Source of the DNA: a virus | Strand: one strand, 5' to 3' | Length of the DNA: 33,667 bases | Virus record (IMG/VR): IMGVR_UViG_3300032307_000457 | Span: 1 to 33,667 of that record | In this document: piece by piece, positions 7,471-33,200 of the stretch | Layout of the letters: each line of letters starts with the position of its first letter | Numbering within the stretch: the stretch's first letter is position 1 | Notes under the pieces: model-generated | What the model was told of the DNA's origin: nothing | Database searches by the model: none | The model's input: the letters and a program-made list of their open reading frames with translations, nothing else | Made by a program: the position numbers and the translations under genes

Positions 7471-7477
7471 CTGTTTA

Positions 7478-7692: not shown

Positions 7693-7710
7693 ATTAACTC
7701 CTTTATAATA

Positions 7711-7739: not shown

Positions 7740-7745
7740 GTTTTG

Positions 7746-7760
7746 TGGTATTATTGAGGA
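7746..7760 (+). promoter_or_regulatory. Extended -10 promoter, leaderless type
   Basis: TGG-TATTAT (-10 at 7749-7754), 6 nt, then ATG 7761. Confidence 0.5.
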
Positions 7761-8311: not shown

Positions 8312-8417
8312 TATGTTCTCTCTTTATGTGATTGTTTAGGGTAAAATGTGCAAAGGCAGACCTTACCTCTATTTCTGATTTACATATATCGCAAGTTACT
8401 GTTTTGTTTGATGCCAT
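8304..8417 (-). CDS. C2H2-like zinc-finger microprotein, 37 residues
   Basis: C9-x2-C12 and H30-x4-H35, separated by a helix-forming stretch, resemble a single C2H2 finger and end in KREH. The start is fixed by an extended -10 six nt upstream. It overlaps the next gene by 8 nt. Possible DNA or RNA binder. Confidence 0.55.
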   Translation of the reverse strand: MASNKTVTCDICKSEIEVRSAFAHFTLNNHIKREHNG

Positions 8418-8432
8418 ATGTCTATTATCTCA
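8418..8432 (-). promoter_or_regulatory. Extended -10 promoter, leaderless type
   Basis: Minus strand TGA-GATAAT, 6 nt, ATG 8417. Confidence 0.5.
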
Positions 8433-8462
8433 TACTTTAACAACTAAGTCAATCATACTATG

Positions 8463-8477
8463 TGATAACATATATAT
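8463..8477 (+). promoter_or_regulatory. Extended -10 promoter, leaderless type (weak hexamer)
   Basis: TGA-TAACAT (-10 at 8466-8471), 6 nt, ATG 8478. The hexamer is poor but geometry matches the others. Confidence 0.4.
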
Positions 8478-9197: not shown

Positions 9198-9209
9198 TAT
9201 AGTTTTACT
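9195..9209 (+). promoter_or_regulatory. Extended -10 promoter overlapping a stop codon
   Basis: TGA-TATAGT (-10 at 9198-9203), 6 nt, ATG 9210. Its TGA is the stop of the upstream glycosyltransferase. Confidence 0.6.
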
Positions 9210-9884
9210 ATGATTGATAGAAAATTATACTGTTTCTGGTTTGGCCAAGAAATGTCTGAGAATAGGGCTAAATGTTATAAAACAATAGTAGAAAACTCAG
9301 GGGTAGAGGTAGTATTGGTAACTGAAGATAATTTAAATAGTTTTATAATACCTAATGATCCGATACATGATGGCTTTAAGTATTTATCAGACACTTTTAA
9401 GTCCGACTATTTAAGACCATACTTTATGCACCACTATGGTGGAGGATACACAGATATCAAGCAGAATTACTACGACTGGAATAAATATTTTAACATATTA
9501 GAAAAAAGCAACTTTGACTGTATTGGCTATAGAGAAAAGCAGCCATATCACGTACACTATAAGCCAGCACAAAAATATTTTAAGAGTCTTATAGGTTGCG
9601 GTTCATACATCCATAAAAGGGGATCATTTTTATCTGAGCAATGGCTAAAAAATGAAAACCTAGAAATGGATAAATACTACGATGAGTTGGTTAAGAATCC
9701 TGGTACATATCATCCAAGAGCAATTTTTGGCGGTATATTAGATAATGAAGTAGATTTTGCAGGTTCGAAATACCCATTTACATGGAGTCAACTATGTGGT
9801 GGGGTTTGGCATAGAACACAGTTTGAAAATCCTGGTAGATGGTCATTTGACCTGCCATATATTAATACTGAAGATTATAGGTAG
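9210..9884 (+). CDS. Capsular-polysaccharide-synthesis-like glycosyltransferase
   Basis: A protein of 224 residues. LYCFWFGQEMSENR near the start, KSDYLRPYFMHHYGGGYTDIK (64-84) and a WHRTQFENPGR block near the end match the order of motifs in Caps_synth and related DXD transferases. The usual DxD reads D82-I-K84 here, so metal binding may differ or another acidic residue may serve. The sugar is unknown. It is probably a single-gene unit read from its own promoter. Confidence 0.65.
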   Translation: MIDRKLYCFWFGQEMSENRAKCYKTIVENSGVEVVLVTEDNLNSFIIPNDPIHDGFKYLSDTFKSDYLRPYFMHHYGGGYTDIKQNYYDWNKYFNILEKSNFDCIGYREKQPYHVHYKPAQKYFKSLIGCGSYIHKRGSFLSEQWLKNENLEMDKYYDELVKNPGTYHPRAIFGGILDNEVDFAGSKYPFTWSQLCGGVWHRTQFENPGRWSFDLPYINTEDYR

Positions 9885-14911: not shown

Positions 14912-15072
14912 TACTCTATCATATCCTTTGCCACTGACAAAAGGTGGCGGGTATTATAAATCTCAGCCTCTTTAACCCTGTAGAAATGATGTTCATTAAC
15001 ATAGTCAATCTTCTCAAGGTCCTGCATAAGACTTATCTCGTGAATCTTCATATATTCAATGAAACTATTCAT
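14911..15072 (-). CDS. Hypothetical helical protein, 53 residues
   Basis: Start at 15072, the ATG that overlaps the end of the acidic gene at 15065 (GATGAATAG). It has His and Tyr in the centre (NEHHFYRVKEAEIYNTRHLL). Unknown role. Confidence 0.55.
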   Translation of the reverse strand: MNSFIEYMKIHEISLMQDLEKIDYVNEHHFYRVKEAEIYNTRHLLSVAKDMIE

Positions 15073-16702: not shown

Positions 16703-17725
16703 TTATGCTAAGGACATTACGCCTTGCACAACTTTTAGCAGACGATTTTTTTCTGCGTTGATAGCAGGGTCAAATCCGCTTGCAGAAGCATAAATGCTTT
16801 CATTATTACCGCCACGAGCAGAGCGATACCAGTCAAGGCGTTCAGTGAGAGCGTTAAACGCACCCCACGCATTACCAGCAATCATACCATTAAATTCGCC
16901 AGTGTAAATATCGTTGATGGTATCAACTTTATTTTCCCACTTCTTGATTGAACCCTTAGCGTCTTTTTCTGGCTTAGGATATGCAGCAAGAATAATGTCG
17001 TTAAATTGCTTAGCATTGACTTCCTTCTCGAACATAGCCTTAGCCATTATGTCGAATTCGTCCATATAAGCATTAGCAAGCCCAAGAGTTTCACGAGCAA
17101 TTTGCACTTTACCATTTGCGGTTTGCGTGTGGCGAATCTTGAATGATTGCTTGATACCCTTATTCTTCTTACGACCTACGCCACCAAGAGCAAGGTTAAG
17201 AGTATTAGCACACACAACACGAACAGGTGTAATGCTTGCTTGAATAGCGATTGAGCCATCGTGTGATGTGTTGATGAGCAAATAAGTTTTTACCTTATCG
17301 GCAACACCGCTAGGGTCAAGAACAGTTTCACGCTCTAGTGCAAGTGAGCCAAATACTACACGACCACCCTTAATTGAGCCAGCAGTTTCCCAACGACCGC
17401 CACCATCTAGAATGTTATCACCAAATGAAAATAAATCTTCATTTTGTAGTGGAACATAACGCTCACCGACAATTCCTAAAACATCAGTTTGAGATTTATC
17501 GGTAGGGTTAGTGCGTAAAACATATTGGTATGATTTATCGCTAACTAAATGATTTGGAATTTCCATATCTTCAAGACGAACATTCCACCCATTGAGATTT
17601 GCAGCCTCTAACATTTCTGCGGTTGTTTTTTCTTCGGTAAATACAGTTCCCAAATTATGCCAAGCAGGTTCTCTGAATGAGGCAAAAGATGTTTTACCAT
17701 TTTGTGTTTCTAAGTCGTGAGCCAC
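16703..17725 (-). CDS. DUF932 phage/plasmid-like protein
   Basis: A protein of 340 residues, the usual length for this family. MAHDLETQNGKTSFASFREPAWHNLG is the classic start; PVRVVCANTLNLAL and the C-terminal WYRSARGGN...A block also fit. DUF932 proteins occur widely in phages and plasmids; their activity is unknown, with suggested roles in DNA metabolism or replication. The start is GTG 17725 with AAGGAG 8 nt upstream. It is a single-gene unit with its own operator-bearing promoter. Confidence 0.85.
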   Translation of the reverse strand: MAHDLETQNGKTSFASFREPAWHNLGTVFTEEKTTAEMLEAANLNGWNVRLEDMEIPNHLVSDKSYQYVLRTNPTDKSQTDVLGIVGERYVPLQNEDLFSFGDNILDGGGRWETAGSIKGGRVVFGSLALERETVLDPSGVADKVKTYLLINTSHDGSIAIQASITPVRVVCANTLNLALGGVGRKKNKGIKQSFKIRHTQTANGKVQIARETLGLANAYMDEFDIMAKAMFEKEVNAKQFNDIILAAYPKPEKDAKGSIKKWENKVDTINDIYTGEFNGMIAGNAWGAFNALTERLDWYRSARGGNNESIYASASGFDPAINAEKNRLLKVVQGVMSLA

Positions 17726-17757: not shown

Positions 17758-17786
17758 ATCATACACCACCCCACCGACAATTGCAA
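17758..17786 (-). promoter_or_regulatory. Promoter with wTGTCGGTGG operator
   Basis: Minus strand TTGCAA (17786-17781), spacer of exactly 17 nt beginning TTGTCGGTGG, -10 TATGAT (17763-17758). Confidence 0.65.
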
Positions 17787-17818
17787 ATCATACTGGCAGA
17801 CATAGGACAATTCGGACA

Positions 17819-17834
17819 GGTGATCAAAATCACA
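17819..17834. promoter_or_regulatory. CRP/GlxR-like palindrome
   Basis: GGTGA-TCAAAA-TCACA, one mismatch to TGTGA-N6-TCACA. It lies 33 nt upstream of the -35 of the DUF932 promoter. Confidence 0.5.
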
Positions 17835-17864
17835 CAGTCTTAATGCGTGTCTGACTTGACAAAG

Positions 17865-17873
17865 TTATCCACA
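17865..17873 (+). repeat. DnaA box
   Basis: Perfect TTATCCACA in the intergenic gap before the DUF932 promoter. Confidence 0.5.
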
Positions 17874-17905
17874 GGCGGCACGGGGAATTTTTGCGGGATA
17901 AAAGT

Positions 17906-17930
17906 TGAGCAGTTTACGTGGACGTACTCA
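17906..17930. repeat. Intergenic hairpin repeat, copy 2
   Basis: TGAGCA with TACTCA around a 13-nt loop. A diverged copy of the element at 16669. Confidence 0.45.
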
Positions 17931-17981
17931 GGTCCCTTACCTAGTTTAGAGACATTCGGTATGTCTATTAGTAGCCCCCTA

Positions 17982-18392
17982 CTAAAAATCAACCCTGTCG
18001 ACTGAAGCGCTAAGCCAAGTTATGTTATCAGAATTGTAAGACACTGATTCAAAATCAATATCATTTACCATTGACTCAACATCTTCATCGTGAGGAACCT
18101 GCAGTGTTAGATTATAAGTTACGGTAACCTCAACTTCAACTTCCTTGGTTAATTCGAAACCACAAATTTCTGCAATCTCTTCTGCTACGTCTTCACTAAT
18201 TCTCCCATTTTGCAATGCAGTAATAGTCCACTCGTGCATATTATCACGCATTGAAACAACTTCTGCTCTTGTTGCATAGTCACGCTGTGTTATGCGTTGG
18301 ATGTGCTCATCCTTGCTTTTAATTGATTCTTGCAACGCAGAAATCTGTGTTTGATAGAATTCTGTTGTTGCGGTTATTACGGTCTGGTCCAT
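17982..18392 (-). CDS. Hypothetical coiled-coil protein, 136 residues
   Basis: The start at 18392 follows GAGG; an upstream in-frame ATG at 18452 falls inside the promoter. The N-terminal half is a coiled coil (FYQTQISALQESIKSKDEHIQRIT). The C-terminal half has long alternating beta strands (VEVEVTVTYNLTLQVP) that resemble small beta-domain phage proteins. Single-gene unit. Function unknown. Confidence 0.7.
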   Translation of the reverse strand: MDQTVITATTEFYQTQISALQESIKSKDEHIQRITQRDYATRAEVVSMRDNMHEWTITALQNGRISEDVAEEIAEICGFELTKEVEVEVTVTYNLTLQVPHDEDVESMVNDIDFESVSYNSDNITWLSASVDRVDF

Positions 18393-18429
18393 TGGGGGCC
18401 TCTTTCTATTTTGTTGGTTTATATATTTA

Positions 18430-18459
18430 ATTGTATAAGGTACCACCGACAAATGTCAA
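18430..18459 (-). promoter_or_regulatory. Promoter with wTGTCGGTGG operator
   Basis: Minus strand TTGACA (18459-18454), 18-nt spacer with TTGTCGGTGG starting 17 nt before the -10 TACAAT (18435-18430). Confidence 0.65.
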
Positions 18460-18676
18460 GGGCCCTTGCGGGGGGCAGTTTTGGATCATACCCAGGATGT
18501 GTGGTTCTTGCAGGCTCCACGACCTGTGCTCTATAGTATTTCTATGATCGCCCTAATCAGCCTGGCGAATATCGGCAAGTAGGCACCTAGGTTAGTTTGA
18601 AACCCACTTCCAATTATTTAATTATTGTGAGCAGTTTTGTATCTTACTCAGGATAGTTGCATTAGCGTTGTGCTAA
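18460..18676. other. Intergenic stretch, mostly unexplained
   Basis: Together with the adjacent promoter this gap is 284 nt. It has a GC-rich portion near 18460-18530 (GGGCCCTTGCGGGGGG) unlike the AT-rich surroundings, and no convincing gene, tRNA or terminator. The hairpin repeat at 18628 lies at its right end. Confidence 0.35.
18628..18650. repeat. Intergenic hairpin repeat, copy 3
   Basis: TGAGCA, 11-nt loop GTTTTGTATCT, TACTCA, 27 nt after the stop of the leftward gene at 18677. Confidence 0.5.
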
Positions 18677-19102
18677 TTATAGGTAGCGAGCCACCGCATT
18701 GTATGTGGAAGTATTTACAACTTCCTCGTCGGTCATTTTGAGGATACGAATTGCGTTTGCAATTTCCTCTTTCTGACTTTCGTATTCGTGTCTATGCAAA
18801 ACTACATAGTCTTTTGTTGGCTCTGTTGGCAGTTCCTTTTCTGATACTGCTAGGTCAAAGTCAATGTTTAGGTTGTTGTTCCAAGAACGATATGAAGTGC
18901 GGAAGTTTGTTGCCTTCTTGATGTTTGCTACTGCATAGTCAATAAGTTCCTTCTTATACTTCTCATAAGCCTTTTGATATTTTGCTTCATTGGCTTCTTG
19001 TGATGTCCAATCAAGTTCTAGTTTGGCAAGTGCGCCTTCTAGTGCCTTGATTACCTTTGGTGTTGCGATTTTAACTGAGATTGCTTTGCCTCTTGTTGCC
19101 AT
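18677..19102 (-). CDS. Conserved-looking phage protein, 141 residues
   Basis: Mostly helical and lysine/glutamate rich with no cysteines: KVIKALEGALAKLELDW, a long charged helix (KYQKAYEKYKKELIDYA), then YDVLH-like and helical segments ending in VARYL. AAGGA lies 8 nt before ATG 19102. Single-gene unit. I cannot assign a function; a structural or nucleoprotein role would fit the charge pattern but is a guess. Confidence 0.7.
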   Translation of the reverse strand: MATRGKAISVKIATPKVIKALEGALAKLELDWTSQEANEAKYQKAYEKYKKELIDYAVANIKKATNFRTSYRSWNNNLNIDFDLAVSEKELPTEPTKDYVVLHRHEYESQKEEIANAIRILKMTDEEVVNTSTYNAVARYL

Positions 19103-19134
19103 TTGTTTTTTCCTTTTCTTTTGCGGTTATTTAT

Positions 19135-19163
19135 ATTATAGGGGGTGGGTCAGACATTTCCCC
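19135..19163 (-). promoter_or_regulatory. Promoter with variant operator
   Basis: -10 TATAAT (19140-19135, minus) with ATGTCTGACC starting exactly 17 nt before it. No good -35. A CCCCC-TTCG-GGGG tetraloop hairpin lies just upstream. Confidence 0.45.
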
Positions 19164-19241
19164 CGAAGGGGGGAGAGTTCTTACTTACGACATTGGGCTA
19201 GAACACTCTCCTAAACTGCCCCTGTTTCGATTTATTTTATT

Positions 19242-19406
19242 TTACTTGGCTGTCCAAGTTGTGTAGCGTGGCTTTCCATCTACCATTAACTTTACACGAA
19301 CATTACCATTAGCCTGTGGAATAATCTCCTCGATTGTTCCTGTGACCTTTGACTTCTGTGTTGTAAAGAGGTCGCCTACCTTGTATGTTGCATTTGATAC
19401 TGCCAT
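19242..19406 (-). CDS. Hypothetical small beta protein, 54 residues
   Basis: The start at 19406 is set by AAAGGAG 8 nt upstream; an in-frame ATG at 19448 lies within the promoter. KVGDLFTTQKSKVTGTIEEIIPQANGNVRVKLMVDGKPRYTTW reads as a five-strand small barrel like SH3 or KOW modules. Single-gene unit with an operator promoter. Confidence 0.65.
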   Translation of the reverse strand: MAVSNATYKVGDLFTTQKSKVTGTIEEIIPQANGNVRVKLMVDGKPRYTTWTAK

Positions 19407-19438
19407 TTGTTTTTCTCCTTTGTTTTGTTGATATATTA

Positions 19439-19468
19439 AGTGTAACATTTTCCACCGACATTTTGCAA
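19439..19468 (-). promoter_or_regulatory. Promoter with wTGTCGGTGG operator
   Basis: Minus strand TTGCAA (19468-19463), 18-nt spacer with ATGTCGGTGG starting 17 nt before the -10 TACACT (19444-19439). Confidence 0.6.
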
Positions 19469-19509
19469 CATTTTCCTGATATTTCTCAAATATTGAGACG
19501 CTCAGGGGG

Positions 19510-19525
19510 TGTGAGTTGCGTCACA
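19510..19525. promoter_or_regulatory. CRP/GlxR-like palindrome, perfect
   Basis: TGTGA-GTTGCG-TCACA, about 40 nt upstream of the -35 at 19468. Confidence 0.55.
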
Positions 19526-19588
19526 TTATTGACCTAAACCAGCCATTATGAGAATAAAGGCTAATAGGGCTATTACTGTCCACTCCAT
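19526..19588 (-). CDS. Membrane micropeptide, 20 residues
   Basis: MEWTVIALLAFILIMAGLGQ is almost wholly one hydrophobic helix. It has AAAGGAG 7 nt before the ATG and a textbook promoter upstream (19609-19637), so it is likely translated despite its size. Confidence 0.5.
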   Translation of the reverse strand: MEWTVIALLAFILIMAGLGQ

Positions 19589-19608
19589 TGGATTTCTCCT
19601 TTTATTAC

Positions 19609-19637
19609 ATTATAGCGATTTTACTGATTATTTGCAA
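19609..19637 (-). promoter_or_regulatory. -35/-10 promoter
   Basis: Minus strand TTGCAA (19637-19632), 17 nt, TATAAT (19614-19609). The -35 lies inside the 3' end of the upstream gene. Confidence 0.6.
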
Positions 19638-19773
19638 TTCTGCTTTTATCTATAATTAACTCATTAAAGTCATATCCAATATTATGACCTTGGCCAATAC
19701 AATCGTGATCTGTGCCTATGACTTGCGGTAGGCAACACTCATCACATATTTCTATTCCATCGGGAATTGACAT
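19621..19773 (-). CDS. Cys/His-rich microprotein, 50 residues
   Basis: C10-x2-C13-C14 then H23, C25 and H30 suggest a small zinc site in the first 30 residues. It follows the Gp88-like gene by 7 nt, so it is the second gene of that unit. Confidence 0.55.
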   Translation of the reverse strand: MSIPDGIEICDECCLPQVIGTDHDCIGQGHNIGYDFNELIIDKSRIANNQ

Positions 19774-19780
19774 CCTTACC

Positions 19781-20500
19781 TCATTTCTTACTACTAGAGA
19801 ATACTATATCAGATTTATTAAACACACATAGGCTACAAGACACACAAGCACTACCGCTAGTAGAGATAAGGGGGATAGCCTTCTTATTCTCAGGGCACTT
19901 AGCGCCAGGCTTATTAAACATTTCTTTCATCTCTGCTTGACCTACCGCAAAATTTTTGGCAAGGTATGCAAGTTTAATGCCCTCATCTTTCTTAAGACTA
20001 ATAGCAATATCTTTGTTATCACTGTCTGTAGAATAATATAAAGATAGATTAGGAATGTCTTTAAGAATGAGCGCAGCAGACTTAACTCTGGTATATACCC
20101 AGAATTGAATATCAGGATGATTAACTATTACATTTTTCCAGGCATATGTATAGAAATCATTAAAGAAATCGCCATCCCAGTGGATACGGAATAACTTAGG
20201 TGCGTCTTTCTTTTCACAATCTTTCTTGAAATCAACAATCATTTCATCTAGCATTGCATACATTGTCTCCATATCTGCATTGCGTAGTAGTTCCCAATTA
20301 TGTAGTAGATTAACCTTTACTGTTGGGAATACTTTTTCCAATTTGCCAGCATAACAAACACTCTCGCATACGCTAGTCGCTCCAGGGCAGGAATAATTCT
20401 TGCCTGCAGGGAGTCCGAATGTATTTGCAATTGCGGCTTGCTTTCCATTTTTTGTGACAAGATTAGCCACCTTTCTATCATTTGAGCGCTTTAGTTTCAT
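19781..20500 (-). CDS. Gp88-domain phage protein
   Basis: A protein of 239 residues. NTFGLPAGKNYSCPGATSVCESVCYAGK (26-53) is the Cys-rich signature of the Gp88 family known from actinobacterial phages, with C38, C45 and C49. WDGDFF (108-113), FWVYTR and a C-terminal Cys cluster (C202, C219, C222, C225) are also conserved-type blocks. The Cys sets could hold an iron-sulfur cluster or zinc; the activity is not known. AAGGAG lies 8 nt before ATG 20500. Confidence 0.75.
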   Translation of the reverse strand: MKLKRSNDRKVANLVTKNGKQAAIANTFGLPAGKNYSCPGATSVCESVCYAGKLEKVFPTVKVNLLHNWELLRNADMETMYAMLDEMIVDFKKDCEKKDAPKLFRIHWDGDFFNDFYTYAWKNVIVNHPDIQFWVYTRVKSAALILKDIPNLSLYYSTDSDNKDIAISLKKDEGIKLAYLAKNFAVGQAEMKEMFNKPGAKCPENKKAIPLISTSGSACVSCSLCVFNKSDIVFSSSKK

Positions 20501-20513
20501 AGGGGGTTCTCCT

Positions 20514-20651
20514 TTATTCCTTAGACAAGTCTAACATTTTTCTGGTGCTTTGTCTAATTCTTTTATATTGTTTTTTGGATGGGACCGAAGAGGCAGCATT
20601 AGATCTACGTAATTCCATTAGGCGTCTTAATTCTTCTGCTGTCTTTTTCAT
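20514..20651 (-). CDS. Small basic helical protein, 45 residues
   Basis: Almost every fourth residue is Arg or Lys (EELRRLMELRRS, KKQYKRIRQSTRKM), suggesting nucleic-acid binding. It is leaderless-type and directly precedes the Gp88-like gene. The stop is 13 nt before the next ATG. Confidence 0.55.
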   Translation of the reverse strand: MKKTAEELRRLMELRRSNAASSVPSKKQYKRIRQSTRKMLDLSKE

Positions 20652-20686
20652 ATAATAATCTTAGCAGAAATTGGAGAAAATATCAA
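20652..20686 (-). promoter_or_regulatory. Complete promoter, leaderless type
   Basis: Minus strand TTGATA (20686-20681), 17 nt ending TGC, TAAGAT (20663-20658), 6 nt, ATG 20651. Confidence 0.6.
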
Positions 20687-20731
20687 GTCTTCTTAATTTG
20701 GGCAATTCGGACATTTTGCCACGGGCCCCAG

Positions 20732-20956
20732 TTATACCTCTATGTATAAATAAAATTTTGCATCATCATCACAACGCAAAGATTCTTCTTCACCAAAATC
20801 ATTTACGTATTCTATTGAATACCCATCTGATAATGATTCTACACTTGTAACTGTCACAATATCTCCATCAACACCAATTAAATCACCTGGCTCTATTGAG
20901 TATGGTGTTAATATATCTACTTTGATTAGATCCATAGTTGCCATTGTAGCAGTCAT
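20732..20956 (-). CDS. Hypothetical beta-rich protein, about 74 residues
   Basis: The body (IKVDILTPYSIEPGDLIGVDGDIVTVTSVE) reads as a small beta barrel with a GD turn, acidic at the end. The start is uncertain: ATG 20956, just after the previous stop, is preferred over 20968, 20944 and 20935. Last gene of the unit from 21600. Confidence 0.55.
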   Translation of the reverse strand: MTATMATMDLIKVDILTPYSIEPGDLIGVDGDIVTVTSVESLSDGYSIEYVNDFGEEESLRCDDDAKFYLYIEV

Positions 20957-20957
20957 T

Positions 20958-21242
20958 TTAATATTCATCCTCTGGTAGCCAGAATGATAAGTGGTGAGCA
21001 TCTACAATATATCTTGCAGGTGCTTCCGCTTCTCCACGCCAACGAATCTGAAAGTCGCCCACTTTAGGCAACGCAATTAGTCGGTCATAGTCTTCCTCAT
21101 AGTATGCGTCAATAGCATCTATGCAAGGTTGCACCATTTCTGCGGGGACTGGAGGGTAGTGATTACCCTTCAAGTGATAAAGAATCTGTGTTTCCAAATC
21201 CAAGACTGTATCCTGTATTCCTAGTGCGGTTATGCTTCCCAT
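20958..21242 (-). CDS. Hypothetical protein, 94 residues
   Basis: Helical first half (DTVLDLETQILYHLKG), then VPAEMVQPCIDAIDAYYEEDYDRL and an Arg/Trp strand (FQIRWRGEAEAPARYIV). One-base overlap with the upstream stop. Unknown. Confidence 0.65.
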   Translation of the reverse strand: MGSITALGIQDTVLDLETQILYHLKGNHYPPVPAEMVQPCIDAIDAYYEEDYDRLIALPKVGDFQIRWRGEAEAPARYIVDAHHLSFWLPEDEY

Positions 21243-21454
21243 TACTTAACTACCACCCTTCCATCTCGATAGAATAACTTAGTGTAACACTTGCCAGTAG
21301 GCGTGTAAAGATTAACTGTGCGGTATTCATTAGCCATACCCCAGTCGGTAAACTTAAAAAAGTTTTCCCAAGCGCCAAATTCTAGTTCATAGCGTTGTGT
21401 CCAATGAGGTTCATTTCCGTCATATGCGCTGGTGATTACATATTCGTAGTCCAT
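21242..21454 (-). CDS. Hypothetical protein, 70 residues
   Basis: Very rich in Tyr, Trp and Phe, with beta-strand alternation (EYRTVNLYTPTGKCYTKLFYRDGRVVV). AAGGAG lies 8 nt before the ATG, inside the upstream gene. Unknown. Confidence 0.65.
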   Translation of the reverse strand: MDYEYVITSAYDGNEPHWTQRYELEFGAWENFFKFTDWGMANEYRTVNLYTPTGKCYTKLFYRDGRVVVK

Positions 21455-21600
21455 TAGTTATTCTCCTTTGTTAAAAATAGTTGGTCAATATAAGCATAGT
21501 CTATCATCGCTTCTACCTCTCGGTCAAGGTAGCAACGGAAGCAATAAAGTTCAGTTACATCTACTGCATTTTCATTACACTGCAAGCATACATCGGTCAT
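21454..21600 (-). CDS. Zinc-ribbon microprotein, 48 residues
   Basis: C5-x2-C8 and C20-x2-C23 in the first half form a compact zinc ribbon (CLQC, CFRC), followed by an acidic helix. AGAAGG lies 6 nt upstream. First gene of the unit reaching 20732. Confidence 0.6.
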   Translation of the reverse strand: MTDVCLQCNENAVDVTELYCFRCYLDREVEAMIDYAYIDQLFLTKENN

Positions 21601-21636
21601 AGGGAGCCTTCTTTCTTTAATTAACTTGATATAAAT

Positions 21637-21665
21637 ATCCTATCAGTTGGGTGCGACAAATACAA
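21637..21665 (-). promoter_or_regulatory. Promoter with partial operator
   Basis: Minus strand TTGTAT (21665-21660), 17-nt spacer starting TTGTCGCACC, -10 TAGGAT (21642-21637). Confidence 0.5.
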
Positions 21666-21705
21666 GCCAATTCTGGGAAAAGTCGCAAACTTTCTTAAAA
21701 ATTTT

Positions 21706-21721
21706 TGTGAGAAAAATCACA
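21706..21721. promoter_or_regulatory. CRP/GlxR-like palindrome, perfect
   Basis: TGTGA-GAAAAA-TCACA, 41 nt upstream of the -35 at 21665. Confidence 0.55.
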
Positions 21722-21736
21722 TCATTCTTAATTGCT

Positions 21737-21757
21737 TGTGGATAAGCCTGTGGATAA
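21737..21757 (-). repeat. Two DnaA boxes
   Basis: TGTGGATAA at 21737-21745 and 21749-21757 (TTATCCACA on the minus strand), 12 nt apart. Confidence 0.5.
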
Positions 21758-21773
21758 CCCCACGGGCAAATTT

Positions 21774-21807
21774 TGAGCAGTTTTAATTCTTGCTCAGGAA
21801 TTTTTTT
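21774..21807. repeat. Intergenic hairpin repeat, copy 4
   Basis: TGAGCA, 11-nt loop GTTTTAATTCT, TGCTCA, GGAA, then seven T residues (plus strand). It follows the stop of the leftward gene at 21806. Confidence 0.6.
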
Positions 21808-21958
21808 ATTTTTTTAATCGTTCTGTTCTTAGCGCAATTTGTAATCTGCGAACTTCTTTTTGCAATTTTACATTTTGTTGCCAGAATGAACCCATCACTA
21901 ACATTGAACTAGATAGTGCAACGATTAATCCTATTAGTGTTCCATTGTCCAAGATCAT
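21806..21958 (-). CDS. One-helix membrane protein with coiled-coil tail, 50 residues
   Basis: A hydrophobic segment at residues 7-25 (TLIGLIVALSSSMLVMGSF) is followed by a basic heptad-type helix (VKLQKEVRRLQIALRTERLKK). AAGGAG lies 6 nt before the ATG. The layout resembles small lysis or membrane-anchor proteins, but the location is in the early-type block. Unknown. Confidence 0.55.
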   Translation of the reverse strand: MILDNGTLIGLIVALSSSMLVMGSFWQQNVKLQKEVRRLQIALRTERLKK

Positions 21959-21967
21959 TTTTTCTCC

Positions 21968-22195
21968 TTATAGATTTTTGTTGTATCGTGTGCCAGATTG
22001 CATAAGTTCTAACTCTTGCGCCTCTGTTTTGGTGCAGGCTGCATAAAACTTATCAAATTTGAAATTTGGATTATCTGCAGAAAACATATCTGAAAATTCA
22101 TCTATTAAATCTTCGAATGTGTTTGTATCTATTTCATCTTTGAATAGATTTAAGATTTCAGCAATAACTACGTAGTCTCTGCGGGTCATTGGCAT
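21968..22195 (-). CDS. Hypothetical helical protein, 75 residues
   Basis: Helical and acidic (DEIDTNTFEDLIDEFSDMF) with a short basic start. MTRRDY two codons later is an alternative start. Unknown. Confidence 0.6.
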   Translation of the reverse strand: MPMTRRDYVVIAEILNLFKDEIDTNTFEDLIDEFSDMFSADNPNFKFDKFYAACTKTEAQELELMQSGTRYNKNL

Positions 22196-22300
22196 TTAGT
22201 TAAATCCATTCTCTTTGAAATCTTTGTATGCCATATATCCAAGCCTTAGAGATACCGCAACCAAAATAATTTGCACGATTGTTGTTAGTAGTCTGCTCAT
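22196..22300 (-). CDS. Membrane micropeptide, 34 residues
   Basis: A hydrophobic helix at residues 4-20 (LLTTIVQIILVAVSLRL) and a polar tail. TAATG overlap with the upstream stop. Unknown. Confidence 0.5.
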   Translation of the reverse strand: MSRLLTTIVQIILVAVSLRLGYMAYKDFKENGFN

Positions 22301-22557
22301 TAGTTATCACCTGCCAACTCTAAGAACATTTCAGTTCCGCCTGCATTAATTTCTTGAATTGCTAAGTCCAAGTCTTTCATTGAGTAGATAGTATCAAGAT
22401 TAATTAATTCATCTACTGCATCTTTGTTCATTTGGATAAACGCCTCACCCATTAGCATAATTGTAGGCAAGTGCCTGCAACTTTCTGAGATACGAGACAC
22501 GAATTTAATTCCCTTATGTGTAAAAGGGAATGTAGCGAATTTAATTGTTTGAGTCAT
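22300..22557 (-). CDS. Hypothetical protein, 85 residues
   Basis: The start at 22557 overlaps the previous stop (TAATG); an upstream in-frame ATG lies inside the neighbour. A beta strand, then RISESCRHLPTIMLMGEAF and an amphipathic C-terminal helix. Unknown. Confidence 0.6.
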   Translation of the reverse strand: MTQTIKFATFPFTHKGIKFVSRISESCRHLPTIMLMGEAFIQMNKDAVDELINLDTIYSMKDLDLAIQEINAGGTEMFLELAGDN

Positions 22558-22739
22558 TAGAGAGAAGCCTTTCCTCGTAGTGTTCCAGTAATTCCAAGAG
22601 TATCGCAAGCGATTTTTACGGATACGCCAACTGGTAATTGTGTTGGGTATTGTGAGATGAATTGAGCAACCGCACCCTTTGAGGGTAGTGCGATTGTTTT
22701 GACTGAGCCATTAAAAGACTCTAACTTAACTTTATACAT
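22557..22739 (-). CDS. Hypothetical small protein, 60 residues
   Basis: A short beta strand, then a helix (GAVAQFISQYP) and two strands ending in a basic tail. TAGGAA lies 8 nt before the ATG. It heads a unit of five genes to 21806, read from an operator promoter. Confidence 0.6.
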   Translation of the reverse strand: MYKVKLESFNGSVKTIALPSKGAVAQFISQYPTQLPVGVSVKIACDTLGITGTLRGKASL

Positions 22740-22780
22740 AGTTAGTTTCCTACTTTCTTTTTTGTTTGTTTGATTATTTA

Positions 22781-22809
22781 ATTATAGTGCAGGGCACCGA
22801 CATTTAGTC
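22781..22809 (-). promoter_or_regulatory. Promoter with wTGTCGGTG operator
   Basis: Minus strand GACTAA, 17-nt spacer beginning ATGTCGGTGC, -10 TATAAT (22786-22781). The -35 includes the stop codon of the gene at 22804. Confidence 0.6.
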
Positions 22810-23019
22810 GGATACCTTTACCGCTACTGTGCGATAAGTTCTGCGACCAAAATTGTTGTAGCCACTATTTGGTGCAACCTCTACCAAATAAGTTTCGCAA
22901 CCATCATACCAAATTGCTTGAGGGTGCTTTTCGGCAGATACGATTTCACCTTGCAAGGTGCGTGAATAGTAATTTGTTCCCACTAGTAGGGACTGGATTG
23001 AGTAGACATTTGCGGACAT
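22804..23019 (-). CDS. Hypothetical beta-rich protein, 71 residues
   Basis: Alternating strands with Tyr and Arg (VGTNYYSRTLQGEIVSAE, CETYLVEVAP, RRTYRTVAVKV) suggest a small beta fold. AAAGGAG lies 6 nt before ATG 23019. Single-gene unit. Confidence 0.65.
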   Translation of the reverse strand: MSANVYSIQSLLVGTNYYSRTLQGEIVSAEKHPQAIWYDGCETYLVEVAPNSGYNNFGRRTYRTVAVKVSD

Positions 23020-23060
23020 TAAGTTCTCCTTTCAAGAGACTTTCATTTTCTTACTATGTA

Positions 23061-23089
23061 AGTTTAGCATTTTTTCTAGATAATATCAA
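23061..23089 (-). promoter_or_regulatory. -35/-10 promoter with extended -10
   Basis: Minus strand TTGATA (23089-23084), 17 nt ending TGC, TAAACT (23066-23061). Confidence 0.55.
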
Positions 23090-23169
23090 ATCGAAAATCG
23101 GACATATCAGACAAATTGAATGTGAGGTTGGTCACACGCTTTTTGATACTTATTTAATTTTACTCCTCT

Positions 23170-23209
23170 AGAGTATCACATAAATCTTAAAAAGTCAAGA
23201 CGACACGCC
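23170..23209 (-). promoter_or_regulatory. Strong promoter with GGCGTGTCG upstream box
   Basis: Minus strand GGCGTGTCG (23209-23201), TTGACT (23198-23193), 17 nt ending TGA, TACTCT (23175-23170). The same box precedes a rightward promoter at 24361. Probably a second promoter for the gene at 23019. Confidence 0.55.
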
Positions 23210-23219
23210 GTAAATAAAA

Positions 23220-23235
23220 TGTGTTTTACATCACA
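23220..23235. promoter_or_regulatory. CRP/GlxR-like palindrome
   Basis: TGTGT-TTTACA-TCACA, one mismatch, just upstream of the promoter at 23209. Confidence 0.45.
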
Positions 23236-23285
23236 GGCGCCCCGTGTGATCCACGGGCTGCATTTTTATGCAGTGCAATTAATTT

Positions 23286-23390
23286 TTATGCGTAAGAACT
23301 TTTACATTCTGAACACACAAAATTAATTTTGCAATAGCAGCCAGCATATACTGGCTCTGGATTTTCATAGTAGTCATCATAGTAATTCAT
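23286..23390 (-). CDS. Cys-pair microprotein, 34 residues
   Basis: Acidic, Tyr-rich start (MNYYDDYYENPEP) then C18-x-C20 and C26-x2-C29, a likely zinc site. TAATG overlap with the upstream stop. Last gene of a five-gene leftward unit from 23996. Confidence 0.55.
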   Translation of the reverse strand: MNYYDDYYENPEPVYAGCYCKINFVCSECKSSYA

Positions 23391-23488
23391 TATGCACCCC
23401 AACAATCAGGGCACACAACAATATCATTTTCATCGAACCACATTGATTGTATTGGTTCATCGCAAGTGCGACAGTTAAGAGTTATCAT
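23390..23488 (-). CDS. Zinc-ribbon microprotein, 32 residues
   Basis: C6-x2-C9 and C26-x2-C29 with little else: a minimal zinc ribbon. AAGGAGG lies 7 nt upstream, the strongest ribosome site in this unit. Confidence 0.6.
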   Translation of the reverse strand: MITLNCRTCDEPIQSMWFDENDIVVCPDCWGA

Positions 23489-23652
23489 TACTTAACCTCC
23501 TTGTATAAAAAGTCCCAAGCCTTACGGCAGATTAGAATTGAGTTGCAGTTATCGCAACAGATAGACCCATTAGGGTTAGCGTTAATATCGAATGCATCGA
23601 CATATGAAATTGTTTTCCCACATACTGAGGGAAGTGAATATAGTGTATTCAT
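23488..23652 (-). CDS. Cys-rich microprotein, 54 residues
   Basis: C11, then C32-C33-x2-C36 and C42 could bind metal. The C-terminal helix is basic and aromatic. One-base overlap with the next gene. Unknown. Confidence 0.6.
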   Translation of the reverse strand: MNTLYSLPSVCGKTISYVDAFDINANPNGSICCDNCNSILICRKAWDFLYKEVK

Positions 23653-23814
23653 TTATTTATTCACCTTTCTTTTTAAGTTACTAATATTTTTAGAGCAGTT
23701 GCTCATATGTACGAAACAAGCGTACCCACACTCATCACAGATACTATCTGCTAAGCGTGTACGAATTTCATTGTAACTCTCGTGAGAGTTTCTATTTTCA
23801 AATATGGAATTCAT
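23653..23814 (-). CDS. Zinc-binding microprotein, 53 residues
   Basis: C26-x2-C29, C33 and H36/C40 follow a basic helix (YNEIRTRLADS). The same YNEIR string occurs in the unrelated-strand gene at 24555. Basic C-terminus. Unknown. Confidence 0.55.
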   Translation of the reverse strand: MNSIFENRNSHESYNEIRTRLADSICDECGYACFVHMSNCSKNISNLKRKVNK

Positions 23815-23996
23815 TATTTAGAGACCTTCCAATCTCTCCACATAGGGAGTCTTTCATCGTCAGTATCGTCATACCAACTTTCAATATTATTTTCACACAC
23901 TTCGCAAAATGTGTAACGCATATCTTCTACGATAGAGATAGCAGACTTATTAGGAGTGTGTTCTTTACACACATTGTTAATTGTTAATGTAGTCAT
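23814..23996 (-). CDS. Zinc-binding protein, 60 residues; first gene of unit
   Basis: C10-x-x-H13 and C31-x2-C34 look like a treble-clef or ribbon site; the end is Trp-rich. The leader AAAGAAAGGTGGTC before the ATG is the same as that of the divergent gene at 24555, and both proteins start MTTL. Confidence 0.6.
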   Translation of the reverse strand: MTTLTINNVCKEHTPNKSAISIVEDMRYTFCEVCENNIESWYDDTDDERLPMWRDWKVSK

Positions 23997-24046
23997 TTTA
24001 GACCACCTTTCTTTGAGATAACCTTTATCTCATCTTGATAGTAACT

Positions 24047-24075
24047 ATCCTAACATAGACCACTGACATTTTGAG
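24047..24075 (-). promoter_or_regulatory. Promoter with variant operator
   Basis: Minus strand -10 TAGGAT (24052-24047) with ATGTCAGTGG starting exactly 17 nt before it; -35 weak (CTCAAA). Confidence 0.5.
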
Positions 24076-24101: not shown

Positions 24102-24133
24102 TGTGATGTACGTCATATGTGATGTAAGTCATA
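24102..24133. promoter_or_regulatory. Two abutting CRP-like half-conserved sites
   Basis: TGTGA-TGTACG-TCATA (24102-24117) and TGTGA-TGTAAG-TCATA (24118-24133), a tandem 16-bp direct repeat. Confidence 0.5.
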
Positions 24134-24147
24134 CGAACATCTGTTCG
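24134..24147. promoter_or_regulatory. LexA (SOS) box
   Basis: CGAACA-TC-TGTTCG, a perfect palindrome matching the Gram-positive/actinobacterial LexA consensus. It abuts the CRP-like pair. Confidence 0.65.
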
Positions 24148-24172
24148 AAAGCCCCGTGTTGTCACGGGCCGA

Positions 24173-24300: not shown

Positions 24301-24316
24301 TCGAACACTTGTTCGA
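24301..24316. promoter_or_regulatory. LexA (SOS) box
   Basis: TCGAACA-CT-TGTTCGA, a perfect 16-bp LexA palindrome between the two rightward promoters. Confidence 0.7.
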
Positions 24317-26047: not shown

Positions 26048-26767
26048 GTGATCAAACTTGACGGCCTACCTAAAATATACTATATTAACCTGGACACAGC
26101 AATAGATCGTAATCAGTATATGCTTGGAATGTTTAAGAAAAACTCAATAACCAATTTTGAAAGGTTTGAAGCAAAGAGACATGTTTGGTCAAAACACGAA
26201 AAACTAAATCCATCAGAATATGGTTGTATGGTTTCTCATTTATCTGTATTAGAAATAATAGCCAACTCTGAAGATGACTATGCGATTATTGCAGAAGATG
26301 ATCTAGATATAACTACTATTAATCAGTGGTCATTTACTTGGCAAGAGTTTTTTGACAAACTTCCTAACTTTGATATTGTTCAACTTGTTAGACATCAATA
26401 CTTAGATCAGTTCTATGATAGAGGAAATAAAGTTAGAACTGGCGCTAAGTTTAAGGTTTGGGATAAGGGCGATGTTTCAACAGTGGCATATCTGGTTACA
26501 AAAGAATATGCAAAAAAAGCAACAGAACTTTATGAAAAAGATAAAGATGGCTTGAGTTATTTTTTAAACTATTCAGATACTGTTGGACCAGTATCGGATG
26601 TAGGGCTTTATGGTGGATTTAACTCTTACTCTACTTGCCTATTCGGATTTCAAATGTTTGAAAGCCAGACAGATGAGTCAAAGATTCCCAAAAAAGCATT
26701 TATTGATAACGTAAAATACATGAAAAAAATTTTTCAAAAAGGAATATCTCTTGATGACATATTTTAA
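26048..26767 (+). CDS. GT25-like glycosyltransferase
   Basis: A protein of 239 residues, GTG start fixed by the promoter. PKIYYINLDTAIDRNQYM (8-25), SEYGCMVSHLSVLE (56-69) and YAIIAEDDLDI (78-88) are the three marker blocks of glycosyltransferase family 25 (LPS and collagen galactosyltransferase type), with the EDD motif at 83-85. No signal peptide. Close paralogue of the next gene. Confidence 0.8.
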   Translation: MIKLDGLPKIYYINLDTAIDRNQYMLGMFKKNSITNFERFEAKRHVWSKHEKLNPSEYGCMVSHLSVLEIIANSEDDYAIIAEDDLDITTINQWSFTWQEFFDKLPNFDIVQLVRHQYLDQFYDRGNKVRTGAKFKVWDKGDVSTVAYLVTKEYAKKATELYEKDKDGLSYFLNYSDTVGPVSDVGLYGGFNSYSTCLFGFQMFESQTDESKIPKKAFIDNVKYMKKIFQKGISLDDIF

Positions 26768-26782
26768 ATTTTTACAAACTAC

Positions 26783-26797
26783 TGATATAATCTAATT
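26783..26797 (+). promoter_or_regulatory. Extended -10 promoter, leaderless type, GTG start
   Basis: TGA-TATAAT (-10 at 26786-26791), 6 nt, GTG 26798. Confidence 0.6.
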
Positions 26798-27484
26798 GTG
26801 GGAAAACTCGACGGTATACCAAAGATAGTCTACATAAACATGGATAGCGCTATAGAGCGTAGAAAACATATGGAATCTCAATTTGCTAATTACGGTATAA
26901 CTAACTACAAAAGATTTTCTGGTTTGAAAGCAATTAGGTCTAAAAATAGAAAAATGAAGCCATCCGAATATGGATGTATGATGTCTCACTTACGTATAAT
27001 CGAAGATTTCTATAAAAGCGGGGAAGATCAAATAATAATAGTAGAAGACGATATAGATATATCAGCAATAGAAAATTGGGACTTCACCTGGAAAGAACTA
27101 ATGGGTATTATTCCTGAATATGATATTTTACAACTAGTTCGAAATCGTGTAGAAGAAGATCATGCAAGATTGAGGGTTTGGGATTGCGAAGACAAGAGCA
27201 CTGGTGCATACTTAATAACAAGAGAATATGCTAAAAAAGTATTAGACATATATACCAAAGATCCAATCAGGCTATATGCATTTCCTGATCTTTCAGAAAG
27301 AGTTGGACCTGTAGCAGACTTTGCGCTATATTTTGGTTTTAATTCACTATCAATATCTGTATTTAAACAAAAACTATTTCCTAGCCAAATTGCAAGGACT
27401 GAGTTTCCAGAGTGGTTTGTCGAGCAACACATATCTATGGAAAAGTTTTGGTCTGAAAAACATTCAATTAGTGAGATAGTATAA
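26798..27484 (+). CDS. GT25-like glycosyltransferase, paralogue of the gene at 26048
   Basis: A protein of 228 residues, GTG start. IPKIVYINMDSAIERRKHM, SEYGCMMSHLRIIE and IIIVEDDIDI (79-88, EDD at 83-85) sit at the same residue positions as in the neighbour, so the pair arose by tandem duplication. A shorter central loop is the main visible difference. Each copy has its own promoter, so expression is not simply shared. Confidence 0.8.
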   Translation: MGKLDGIPKIVYINMDSAIERRKHMESQFANYGITNYKRFSGLKAIRSKNRKMKPSEYGCMMSHLRIIEDFYKSGEDQIIIVEDDIDISAIENWDFTWKELMGIIPEYDILQLVRNRVEEDHARLRVWDCEDKSTGAYLITREYAKKVLDIYTKDPIRLYAFPDLSERVGPVADFALYFGFNSLSISVFKQKLFPSQIARTEFPEWFVEQHISMEKFWSEKHSISEIV

Positions 27485-27488
27485 ATAT

Positions 27489-28097
27489 ATGATTCCTAAA
27501 ATAATACACAGAACAGTGCCAAGAGAAACAACCGAGTTAATGGACTATTGTTGGGAAACAGTTAAAAAATATACTCCAGACTACATACACATGACTCATT
27601 ATGATGATGATGAGTATAAATATATAAAAGATGTTTTGCCACTTTGCAAAAGAGGTGCATTTAGGGCAGACTTAATTCGTTTAGAAGTTTTGTATAGGTA
27701 CGGTGGTATATATATAGATAGCGACTTAGAACTATACAAAAACATTGATTCTTTTTTAAATAGCAATTTATTTGTTTGTAAAGAAGACAATTGGTACATC
27801 ATTAATGCAGTCATAGGTGCTTCACCACAAAATGAACACATATTAAATCTTTTAAAAATATCTAAAAACATTATTAAGCAGGGTGGGCTAGAGCCTCCAT
27901 ACTTATTTAAATCAAAAGAATTAAAAATAAAGATGGCTTTTGGGCCACATGTATTTCATAATTATTTAAAAAATAAAACTGGAATAAATGTTATTGATTC
28001 AGAAAATTTTGGAACATTTTGGCATAATGAAAAAATAAAAGGTATTTATGGAACACACATATGTGCTGGATCGTGGACAAAAGAGGAGGAAAACTAA
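27489..28097 (+). CDS. GT32-like (Gly_transf_sug) glycosyltransferase
   Basis: A protein of 202 residues, shorter than the family member at 3467. IPKIIHRTVP at the start, RADLIRLEVLYRYGGIYIDSDLELY (59-83) with D77-x-D79, and a later AFGPHVFH block fit GT32. The start lies 4 nt after the previous stop with no ribosome site; TGA-GATAGT 8 nt upstream could serve as a weak leaderless-type promoter, otherwise it depends on the upstream gene. Confidence 0.75.
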   Translation: MIPKIIHRTVPRETTELMDYCWETVKKYTPDYIHMTHYDDDEYKYIKDVLPLCKRGAFRADLIRLEVLYRYGGIYIDSDLELYKNIDSFLNSNLFVCKEDNWYIINAVIGASPQNEHILNLLKISKNIIKQGGLEPPYLFKSKELKIKMAFGPHVFHNYLKNKTGINVIDSENFGTFWHNEKIKGIYGTHICAGSWTKEEEN

Positions 28098-30244: not shown

Positions 30245-33200
30245 ATGTCAGATGTAGTTGTAAAGATTGTTCCAATGGTAGGTCCAGAAGGACCAACAGG
30301 GCCACAAGGTCCAATAGGTCCATCAGGAGGTCCAGTAGGTCCACAGGGTCCAGTAGGTCCTGGCTATGCTCCAGTTACGCTATATCCAATTGCGGTTGGA
30401 AGCACATCTGACGGACTAAAAATCTTTGGTGGTGAAACTCTACCTATTTCATGGAGTGAAGGTAGTAGAGTTAGAGTTCTTCCATTAAATAATGGTTTAC
30501 CAATTCCCTCTATTTTTATGGATGGTCACATTCAAGTAATCACTCCTGAAAGAGACGAAATAAGGATTTACGTTGACTACTACGAAGGCACTTGGGGATC
30601 AGTCCAGTATGAAGAATGGCAGATGGTTCTTACTGGTCAACGTGGTGCTACAGGTGCAACTGGACCACAAGGAATACAGGGTCCAAAAGGAGATAAGGGA
30701 GATCAGGGTATCCAAGGACCAATAGGTCAAACTGGTGCAACTGGAATTAACTGGCAAGGATCTTGGAAATTTGATGTAGATTATGTAAATAATGATGCAG
30801 TTTTTTATAACCAATCTTCTTGGTTTGCTTCAGGTAATCCACCTTTAGGAGAGGTTCCATCTTTAACATCTTCTTACTGGTTCCCACTAGCAATAGAAGG
30901 TGCAACAGGTCCAGTAGGACCACAAGGCCCTATAGGATTAACTGGTGAGACAGGACCGCAAGGTCCAATAGGTCCAGAGGGAATTTTAGAATCACCAACT
31001 CCTCCAACAGATACAGATACTCTTTGGCTTGATACATCAGTCGAAGGTTTGACTGGAGTTGGAGTCCAAGGAGAAATTGGTTTTCCTGGATTTAAGTATG
31101 ACACCAGAAGAACATATACAAATCAATACGTTGTTGGCGAAATAATTGAATACAATGGAAACTATTTTATTTGTACTGCAAGCAACGATGCTATACCACC
31201 AACTGGTGGAGCAATTGGAGTTTATTGGTCACCATACTCTTTTGTAGGTCCACAAGGGCCAGTAGGACCACAAGGTGATCAAGGGCCACAAGGTGTTCCA
31301 GGAACAGATGCATCTGGTGGAGTTGTTTACTTAGGAAACTATGTTTCAGGTAATGGATACACTAAAGACATTGCAGTTGTAAGAGGAAGCGATAATAACT
31401 TATACATTGCAAAAGCAAATGGTGGTTTAGCAGATCCAGTTGGCAATACTGCAGAGTGGAATATATTCTCCAACAATGATAGTGAAACCGCAAATCTTGG
31501 AGACTTCCAGTTTACTGCAGCAACCGCTAATGTTAACAACTCGCAATCACTACGTTTAGAATCTAGAAGATATGACGGAACATCAGCAGGAGACTTAATT
31601 CTTAATCCAAACGATCCTTCTATAAGACTAAGAGCAAATGATCTGCGGAGTGAATATTTTAACAATCAGTGGTCTTCTGCTACTTGGAGCAATGAAATAG
31701 TTGATATTGTAGACACTCCAGATATTATTAACTTCTTAAATTCAATAACTGACTCAGCAGGTGTACAACGTGTTTCTATCAATGGGGGGCAGCCAATAAA
31801 TGTCACTGGTTTAAGTTGGACTCCAACAAATGTTCAGTTGGCTGTTGCTACACCAACAGAGAATACAACAACAATAACAGAAATTGTATTTATATATCAA
31901 ATTACGTCTCAAATAAGTCTTGATTATGACGATGGCTCTATTGATATTTTTGCAAATAGAATGAATATAAATATGACAACCACAGAGGGTAGAGATATTA
32001 ATATTATTTCTGCTGATGATGCAACTCTTAGAGCATCTGGAGATGACCTAAATCTTCATGCAAAGGATGATATTCGTTTTATTTCATCATGGGATAATGC
32101 CGATCATTCATGGACAATGGATTCGGAAGGAAGGCTACAACTTCCAGGTAACGGTTATATAGAAAACCCTGAAGACTCATCTGGAGATGGGTACCAAAAT
32201 GATACTATAAAAATAGTTCCAGATAGTCTTTTGCAGTCAGATCAATATTTAATAATTGATCCTACCGCTCCAAACCACATTCATATTCGTGCTGGTGGTG
32301 TTCAAGATTACTCCAACGCAGAACTTATTCTTGGTGGCGAAAGAGCAGGGGTACATGTATCTGATCCAACTGGAGATGTGTGGGTTCAGACAAAGAAAGA
32401 AGACTACAACTGGTCATGGCAAAATGTAAACCCTAATGATGGAACTACATATATTACAAACTCATCTATGTCAGAACCAGATATTGGTGACTTTACAGTT
32501 CAGGATGGCATTAAATATATTATCACTAGTGTATCTAGAGATGAACCAAACGGAAACACTGCATACATGGCAACAGGAAGCAATGGAGAACTTCTAAACT
32601 TTGTTTCTCTTGCATATTATACATTTACTAGAGACAATGGTAATTACACTTGGAAATTTGATGCTATTAATGATGCTCCAGTTCTTGTTCTTCCCCCAGA
32701 AGAGCCAATGATTACAAATCTAGCGGTGCCAGGAGATATTACTCTTAGTGCATATAATGGAATTAAGATTGCAGCATCACAAGGATTTGGAATTGAATTC
32801 CCCGATCAAACAATTCAGACAACTGCTTATATTCCAGGAGGAGATGCTCCAGCAGAAACATTGTTTACAGTAAATGGTGGAACCACTGCAGCACAGCCAA
32901 CATTTAACGGTGCCCCATTATTTAGCGGTAGTTATATTAAAACAGGTCAATTAATACACTTCCAAATACAGGTAGACATGGATAACATATCTGACTTTGG
33001 TACTGGACAGTTCTATGTAGATCTACCATTTGCAGCAAAGTATGGGTATCAGTTTAAAGAGGGATGTCTACATGACATATCAACAAGCAAACAATATGCT
33101 ATTGGTGGCCATGTCGCTGCAAATACAGAAAGATTGTTCTTAACATTTACTAACTCTGCTGGGCAAGATGAGTTGTTTGATCATAATAGTCCAATAACAT

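Follow-up and report, generated by a model that had tools for sequence, protein, structure and literature searches.

Host-type PafBC-dependent promoters very probably serve a block of small genes in a freshwater actinophage lineage

Introduction

The RecA-NDp promoter of actinobacteria, with the published consensus tTGTCRgtg-8 nt-TannnT (PMC5656591), takes the form TGTCGG, TGTCAG or TGTCAC followed by N10-TANNNT in Mycobacterium tuberculosis (PMC8151990) and has been reported beyond mycobacteria (PMC8223512), including in Streptomyces (PMC5087735). Its activator is PafBC, which is switched on by single-stranded DNA (ssDNA) bound at the WYL domains; cryo-electron microscopy (cryo-EM) places the helix-turn-helix (HTH) of PafB on the -26 motif and that of PafC on domain 4 of sigma-A (PMC11804915). 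The recognition-helix arginines of PafB have been described (PMC6789036). In the open-licence papers that were searched, PafBC is described as a bacterial activator of DNA repair, and its use by phages was not found. Freshwater actinophages carrying WhiB are known, some of them predicted to infect acI actinobacteria (PMC6802176). Here we analyze a 33.7-kb virus record of 33,667 nucleotides (nt) (IMG/VR IMGVR_UViG_3300032307_000457, positions 1 to 33,667; hereafter the window), in which a decamer of the form WTGTCRGTGS precedes the -10 hexamers of minus-strand genes. The initial annotation had described this decamer as a phage operator, serving a repressor, an activator or a phage-modified RNA polymerase. 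The comparisons below indicate that decamer and -10 together very probably constitute PafBC-dependent host promoters (the RecA-NDp or "-26 element" type), used by the phage for a block of small genes on the minus strand.

The phage promoters share with RecA-NDp and recA P1 of mycobacteria and other actinobacteria the TGTCRG(TG) core, the 10 nt from TGTCRG to TANNNT and the orientation relative to the gene; a -35 may be as dispensable in them as it is there, and the same element is found at recA of acI genomes. They differ in serving a single block of small genes without known function rather than DNA-repair genes, in being often paired with a phased CRP-type site and in the frequency of TGTCAGACC, TCC and CC variants. 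More distant parallels exist. At T4 middle promoters, where sigma is appropriated by MotA/AsiA, the -35 gives way to an activator element whose protein engages sigma domain 4, features that appear to have their like here; however, the MotA box is centred near -30 while the phage decamer lies nearer the -10 (-29 to -20), and its activator would be a host, not a phage, protein. The stoperators of Cluster A mycobacteriophages (Gp71 sites, GGTGGMTGTCAAG) are asymmetric sites near -35 regions that occur also away from promoters. The letters are superficially similar, but the sequence is different and the element studied here occurs essentially only 7 nt before a -10.

Results

Fixed spacing of decamer and -10

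The pattern WTGTCRGTGS-N7-TANNNT matches the window at 14940, 17780, 18452, 19461, 22803 and 24069, always on the minus strand, against a chance level of 0.004 (mean of 500 Markov-shuffled windows) and no match in the window for the reversed pattern. Two degenerate copies, at 19157 (ATGTCTGACC) and 21659 (TTGTCGCACC), retain the same distance between decamer and -10. Seven sites had been listed initially, with the first base of the decamer exactly 17 nt ahead of the -10 hexamer; all seven were recovered at that distance (17780, 18452, 19461, 22803, 24069 with one change, and the two degenerate copies), and an eighth, at 14940, had been overlooked. The bare decamer, with two mismatches allowed, is weakly enriched in the window (34 versus 25.5); the signal resides in the combination of decamer and -10. 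Every site lies on the same strand as the gene downstream, and the distance between -10 and start codon is 6 to 50 nt (Table 1).

Conservation of the spacing was examined in 80 related loci, drawn from IMG/VR by their GP88-family gene (PF17338) and in many cases part of records of ~100-116 kb. In these loci and the window together, TANNNT stands at exactly +7 in 355 of 355 decamers, with two occurrences of the reversed decamer. The fixed phasing and the candidate regulon that had been proposed hold up: the check suggested with them, for decamers away from promoters or at variable distance in relatives, did not refute them. A scan of viral contigs in IMG/VR with the gap left free gave at least 115 matches at spacing 7 and, among the matches listed, 0 to 6 at each other spacing; the exact long pattern, being too specific, had no match in IMG/VR. 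When the relatives were searched by k-mers centred on -10 boxes, TGTCAG was found at -16 in 430 cases, with 4.0 expected, and this core continues as TGG, ACC, TCC or CC. In 12 long records, correctly spaced sites, where there are several, gather in one block of ~10 kb on one strand, and of the 66 loci that have more than one site, 65 have at least one gene in common with this phage group. One record of 112 kb (G005; L208/L209) begins and ends with the same 3,269 bases, which include part of the promoter block and are possibly a long terminal repeat.

The logo of 56 dereplicated sites reads wTGTCRGTGS-N4-tG-n-TATAAT. The initial placement of the decamer directly after the -35 proved correct for half of the window sites, four of the eight having a TTG-type hexamer (TTGCAA at 17780 and 19461, TTGACA at 18452, TTGTAT at 21659), but the information content of the -35 region over the dereplicated sites is no higher than ~0.2 bit per position. 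Since the -35 is not conserved, the element looks necessary for promoter strength, which counts against its being the operator of a repressor that blocks RNA polymerase. Constant placement over the spacer would be in keeping with such a repressor, and the window also holds two LexA boxes; repressor sites, however, usually vary in position, which is constant here in 355 cases, and the known reader of the sequence is an activator (PMC11804915). A repressor is, on balance, very improbable. Much the same low probability attaches to the view that the sigma-A holoenzyme alone reads the decamer, as an element within the spacer of strong extended -10 promoters that belong to the ordinary host grammar. 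The TGn ahead of the -10, partly conserved among the 56 sites, would fit that view; yet in the whole acI genome IMCC19121, TGTC shows no clear enrichment at -16 of -10-like boxes (10 times against an average of ~6-7); it stands at a few promoters, recA among them. A general host promoter grammar was discarded, having no genome-wide support in IMCC19121.

Conservation at orthologous genes

Orthologues of the lead genes in the window were inspected for WTGTCRG-N10-TANNNT within 130 nt upstream, an event with a chance of ~0.0004 per gene from simple base frequencies. The element precedes 60 of 63 DUF932 orthologues, 71 of 80 GP88 orthologues, 65 of 74 orthologues of the 19102 gene (the commonest form being ATGTCAGACCCCCCTGCTATACT), 63 of 72 of the 54-amino-acid (aa) gene (19242-19406) and 64 of 70 of one further lead gene. 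It is found at 20 of 25 orthologues of the 136-aa gene (17982-18392) and, for the two 60-aa genes, at 18 of 25 (22557-22739) and 15 of 19 (23814-23996). Lower figures were obtained for the gene at 14911 (18/40) and for that starting at 21600, for which four orthologues were found, two with an intact core. By comparison, an operon-internal gene has the core in 1 of 66 orthologues. With the core intact in 65 of the 74 orthologues, the 19157 site has the look of a genuine copy that has diverged. That one block of an actinophage lineage has a host-type promoter at up to 95% of the orthologues of every lead gene is a new finding.

The element and its probable reader in acI actinobacteria

A strict-pattern scan of bacterial genomes gave 36 matches, about the chance number overall. 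Three of them lie in freshwater acI actinobacteria, one directly upstream of carD and two in tandem upstream of the gene for a VWA protein. In 151 genomes of the acI order the correct spacing yielded 25 matches versus 7 for the reversed pattern, and 5 of the 25 are carD promoters; a wrong-spacing control, one base shorter and with a slightly different -10 part, yielded 2 versus 4 reversed in the same genomes. Six freshwater genomes of this order (L231:7646, L331, L332, L341, L327 and L328) have a conserved RecA-NDp-type promoter (WTGTCAGNNNNGGCTGGTAGAAT) at carD, and three have the element upstream of the VWA-protein gene. The carD product, a regulator that binds RNA polymerase, is absent from the PafBC papers cited here and can be considered a candidate member of the PafBC regulon. 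In two acI loci (L233:1224-1620 and L241), a pair of tandem PafBC-type promoters is followed by a short leader open reading frame (ORF), a terminator-like hairpin and the VWA-domain gene. This arrangement looks like an attenuated damage-inducible operon; an Rfam search gave no convincing match.

The recA gene of IMCC19121 (1.50 of the 1.51 Mb of this genome was covered) has TTGTCAGTGCCGCCTGCTACCTT upstream, with a LexA box immediately after it. Three more acI genomes have TTGTCGGTGG-N7-TANNNT at recA, identical to the window decamer, each with a LexA (SOS) box; these three were retrieved with a loose host pattern of recA plus SOS box that is itself mostly noise. In the four recA promoters the LexA box lies 0-30 nt downstream of the element. 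In each of its bases and in its spacing the window element agrees with the RecA-NDp promoter and is not a new operator: what had been read as a phage operator is apparently the host PafBC -26 element, also present at host recA and carD.

WYL proteins were found in 20 of 20 acI-order genomes, most of which have tandem WYL genes. Adjacent genes of IMCC19121 match the solved PafB (E 5e-43) and PafC (4e-23) (structures 6sj9 and 7p5x), and both recognition-helix arginines of PafB are retained there, within RMFERDK. No WYL protein was found in 15 phage records. ClgR, once proposed for mycobacterial P1, has been considered as reader in place of PafBC; PMC5656591 cites a report that ClgR recognises the P1 region, but P1 activity is lost in a delta-pafBC strain (PMC5656591) and cryo-EM places PafB on the -26 motif (PMC11804915), making ClgR extremely unlikely.

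A phage-encoded activator, for example a WhiB-like or an unrecognised small DNA-binding protein, might also read the element, whose likeness to PafBC sites would then reflect convergence or take-over by a substitute. All 14 near-complete related phage records, two Streptomyces phages included, have a WhiB-family gene, and most phage proteins are without known function. Domain 4 of sigma-A is where Wbl proteins act. Still, sequence and exact spacing fit a host element that has been characterised and that stands at recA and carD in hosts of the same order, and the phages have neither a WYL protein nor a sigma-70 region 4 above cut-off; we consider a phage activator improbable. Two other candidates were rejected: a phage sigma factor (PF04545 above cut-off in 0 of 15 records, with two weak partial matches below it) and WhiA, reading GACAC in the reverse complement, since the core is TGTCRG and not GTGTC. 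From among the modes of action suggested by the initial annotation, activation is the one supported; contact with RNA polymerase is upheld as well, and no sign of a phage-modified polymerase was seen. To judge from shared promoter variants, habitat, WhiB genes and homologues in phages of Streptomyces and Mycobacterium, the host of the window is likely an acI bacterium.

CRP-type sites and LexA boxes

CRP/GlxR-type palindromes lie in the window at 15321, 17819, 19510, 21706, 23121, 23220, 24102, 24118, 24173 and 24333, four of them exact and most of them upstream of minus-strand promoters. In the 80 loci, TGTGA-N6-TCACA with up to one mismatch occurs 781 times, against 33-72 for control palindromes, and 359 of the 434 exact sites have a PafBC-type site less than or equal to 150 bp downstream of them. 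Such a site lies upstream of 38 of 92 dereplicated promoters (controls, 0-2). With +1 taken as 7 nt after the -10, the centres form a 10-bp ladder (~-54.5, -64.5, -74.5 and -84.5), 31 of 43 falling in one three-base phase window. Class I CRP-activated promoters of E. coli likewise have TGTGA-N6-TCACA upstream at ~10-bp steps, at -61.5, -71.5 and -82.5; the phage ladder is shifted by ~3 bp and accompanies a PafBC-type core promoter. HTH_Crp_2 proteins were found in nine of nine hosts examined and a CRP-type HTH protein in none of 13 phage records, suggesting that a CRP-family protein of the host acts at the upstream sites. The phage block thus appears to be wired to two host regulators, PafBC and a CRP-type protein.

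The window contains two actinobacterial LexA boxes, with 0.03 expected. In the relatives there are 7 in 1.27 Mb, mostly at one promoter; not being general, LexA boxes fall outside the definition of the regulon. Both arms of the host damage response may be represented in this phage. A nonamer, CGACACGCC/GGCGTGTCG, occurs in the window at 23201 and 24191 and in 450 copies in L001-L080, where a simple count would predict ~10. It peaks at -54 and -46 from the PafBC-type promoters of the relatives and includes GACAC, the WhiA core.

Table 1. Coordinates of promoters, regulatory sites and associated genes (window coordinates unless an accession is given)
Feature	Position	Strand	Remarks
PafBC-type promoter TTGTCAGTGG-N7-TATGAT	14918..14940	-	before gene at 14911
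RecA-NDp/PafBC-type promoter TTGTCGGTGG-N7-TATGAT	17758..17780	-	upstream of DUF932 gene
PafBC-type promoter TTGTCGGTGG-N7-TACAAT	18430..18452	-	upstream of 136-aa gene 17982-18392
Degenerate PafBC-type promoter ATGTCTGACC-N7-TATAAT	19135..19157	-	upstream of 141-aa gene 18677-19102
PafBC-type promoter ATGTCGGTGG-N7-TACACT	19439..19461	-	upstream of 54-aa gene 19242-19406
Degenerate PafBC-type promoter TTGTCGCACC-N7-TAGGAT	21637..21659	-	upstream of gene starting at 21600
PafBC-type promoter ATGTCGGTGC-N7-TATAAT	22781..22803	-	upstream of 60-aa gene 22557-22739
PafBC-type promoter ATGTCAGTGG-N7-TAGGAT	24047..24069	-	decamer with one change; upstream of 60-aa gene 23814-23996
DUF932-family gene (PF06067, phrog_1221)	16703..17725	-	first gene under the 17780 promoter
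GP88-family gene (PF17338, phrog_1392)	19781..20500	-	window copy without PafBC-type promoter
CRP-type site GGTGATCAAAATCACA	17819..17834		1 mismatch; centre at -75.5 of the 17780 promoter
CRP-type site TGTGAGTTGCGTCACA	19510..19525		exact; centre at -85.5 of the 19461 promoter
CRP-type site TGTGAGAAAAATCACA	21706..21721		exact; upstream of the 21659 promoter
Two adjacent CRP-type sites	24102..24133		1 mismatch each; upstream of the 24069 promoter
LexA (SOS) box ACGAACATCTGTTCGA	24133..24148		1 mismatch
LexA (SOS) box TCGAACACTTGTTCGA	24301..24316		exact; actinobacterial type
TGTCC-N11-TAGACT promoters	NC_042009 (NootNoot) 1307-9252 and 121606-129551		also NC_055842, MF155946, MF358541

Discussion

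If the phage promoters follow the published mycobacterial mechanism, ssDNA-bound PafBC would join the sigma-A holoenzyme at each of them, the winged helix of PafB reading the -26 motif, here TGTCRG at ~-28 to -23, and that of PafC holding sigma-A domain 4, so that no -35 would be needed. Host PafBC would then drive these promoters during infection, probably early, with ssDNA from the infection or damage to the host turning them on and a host CRP-type regulator assisting at the phased upstream sites. The promoter class itself has been described before. A phage lineage that employs it as a regulon, together with phased CRP-type sites, was not found in the open-licence literature, where searches on the bare nine-mer and on actinophage early promoters returned nothing relevant.

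Several observations weigh against control of the block by PafBC. Half of the window promoters keep a TTG-type -35 hexamer, so that some may be active independently of PafBC. The element is missing from the minority of promoters at orthologous genes, including those of GP88 and the 23019 gene in the window. Assignment of the window to an acI host is putative, being drawn from the habitat, the WhiB genes and the homologues in actinophages. Finally, TGTCRG promoters exceed the chance level in none of the 14 cultivated actinophages with DUF932 or GP88 that were examined.

By DUF932, the closest cultivated relatives are the Samistivirus phages of Streptomyces (Stanwilliamsviridae). These lack TGTCRG promoters but carry TGTCC-N11-TAGACT, placed as the PafBC -26 element is, always on one strand and with no match to the reversed pattern; the promoters are confined to ~10 kb at each genome end (the terminal repeats) and exist in two copies. 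It seems conceivable that a widespread freshwater actinophage lineage does without a transcription factor of its own for the block and uses as its switch PafBC, which unites ssDNA sensing and sigma adaptation, along with a CRP-family protein at phased sites, the genes being turned on by the ssDNA of infection or by prior damage, and that the TGTCC form of Samistivirus is an older or parallel version. This wider scenario is tentative, its chances seeming to us a little short of even. Were this promoter used by phages that infect the bacteria most abundant in fresh water, the host damage response would be a viral resource, and ssDNA sensed by PafBC would be the likely signal of infection. Control by PafBC would also give the block genes of unknown function a testable induction condition. 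The lineage would supply hundreds of natural variants of the PafBC promoter, and the same question could be put in the laboratory with the TGTCC promoters of the cultivated Streptomyces phages.

Genes resembling those for glycosyltransferases, epimerases, methyltransferases and sulfotransferases are numerous on both sides of the block, at 1148-9884 and 26048-28097, and next to them lies a collagen-repeat tail-fibre gene (30245-33250).

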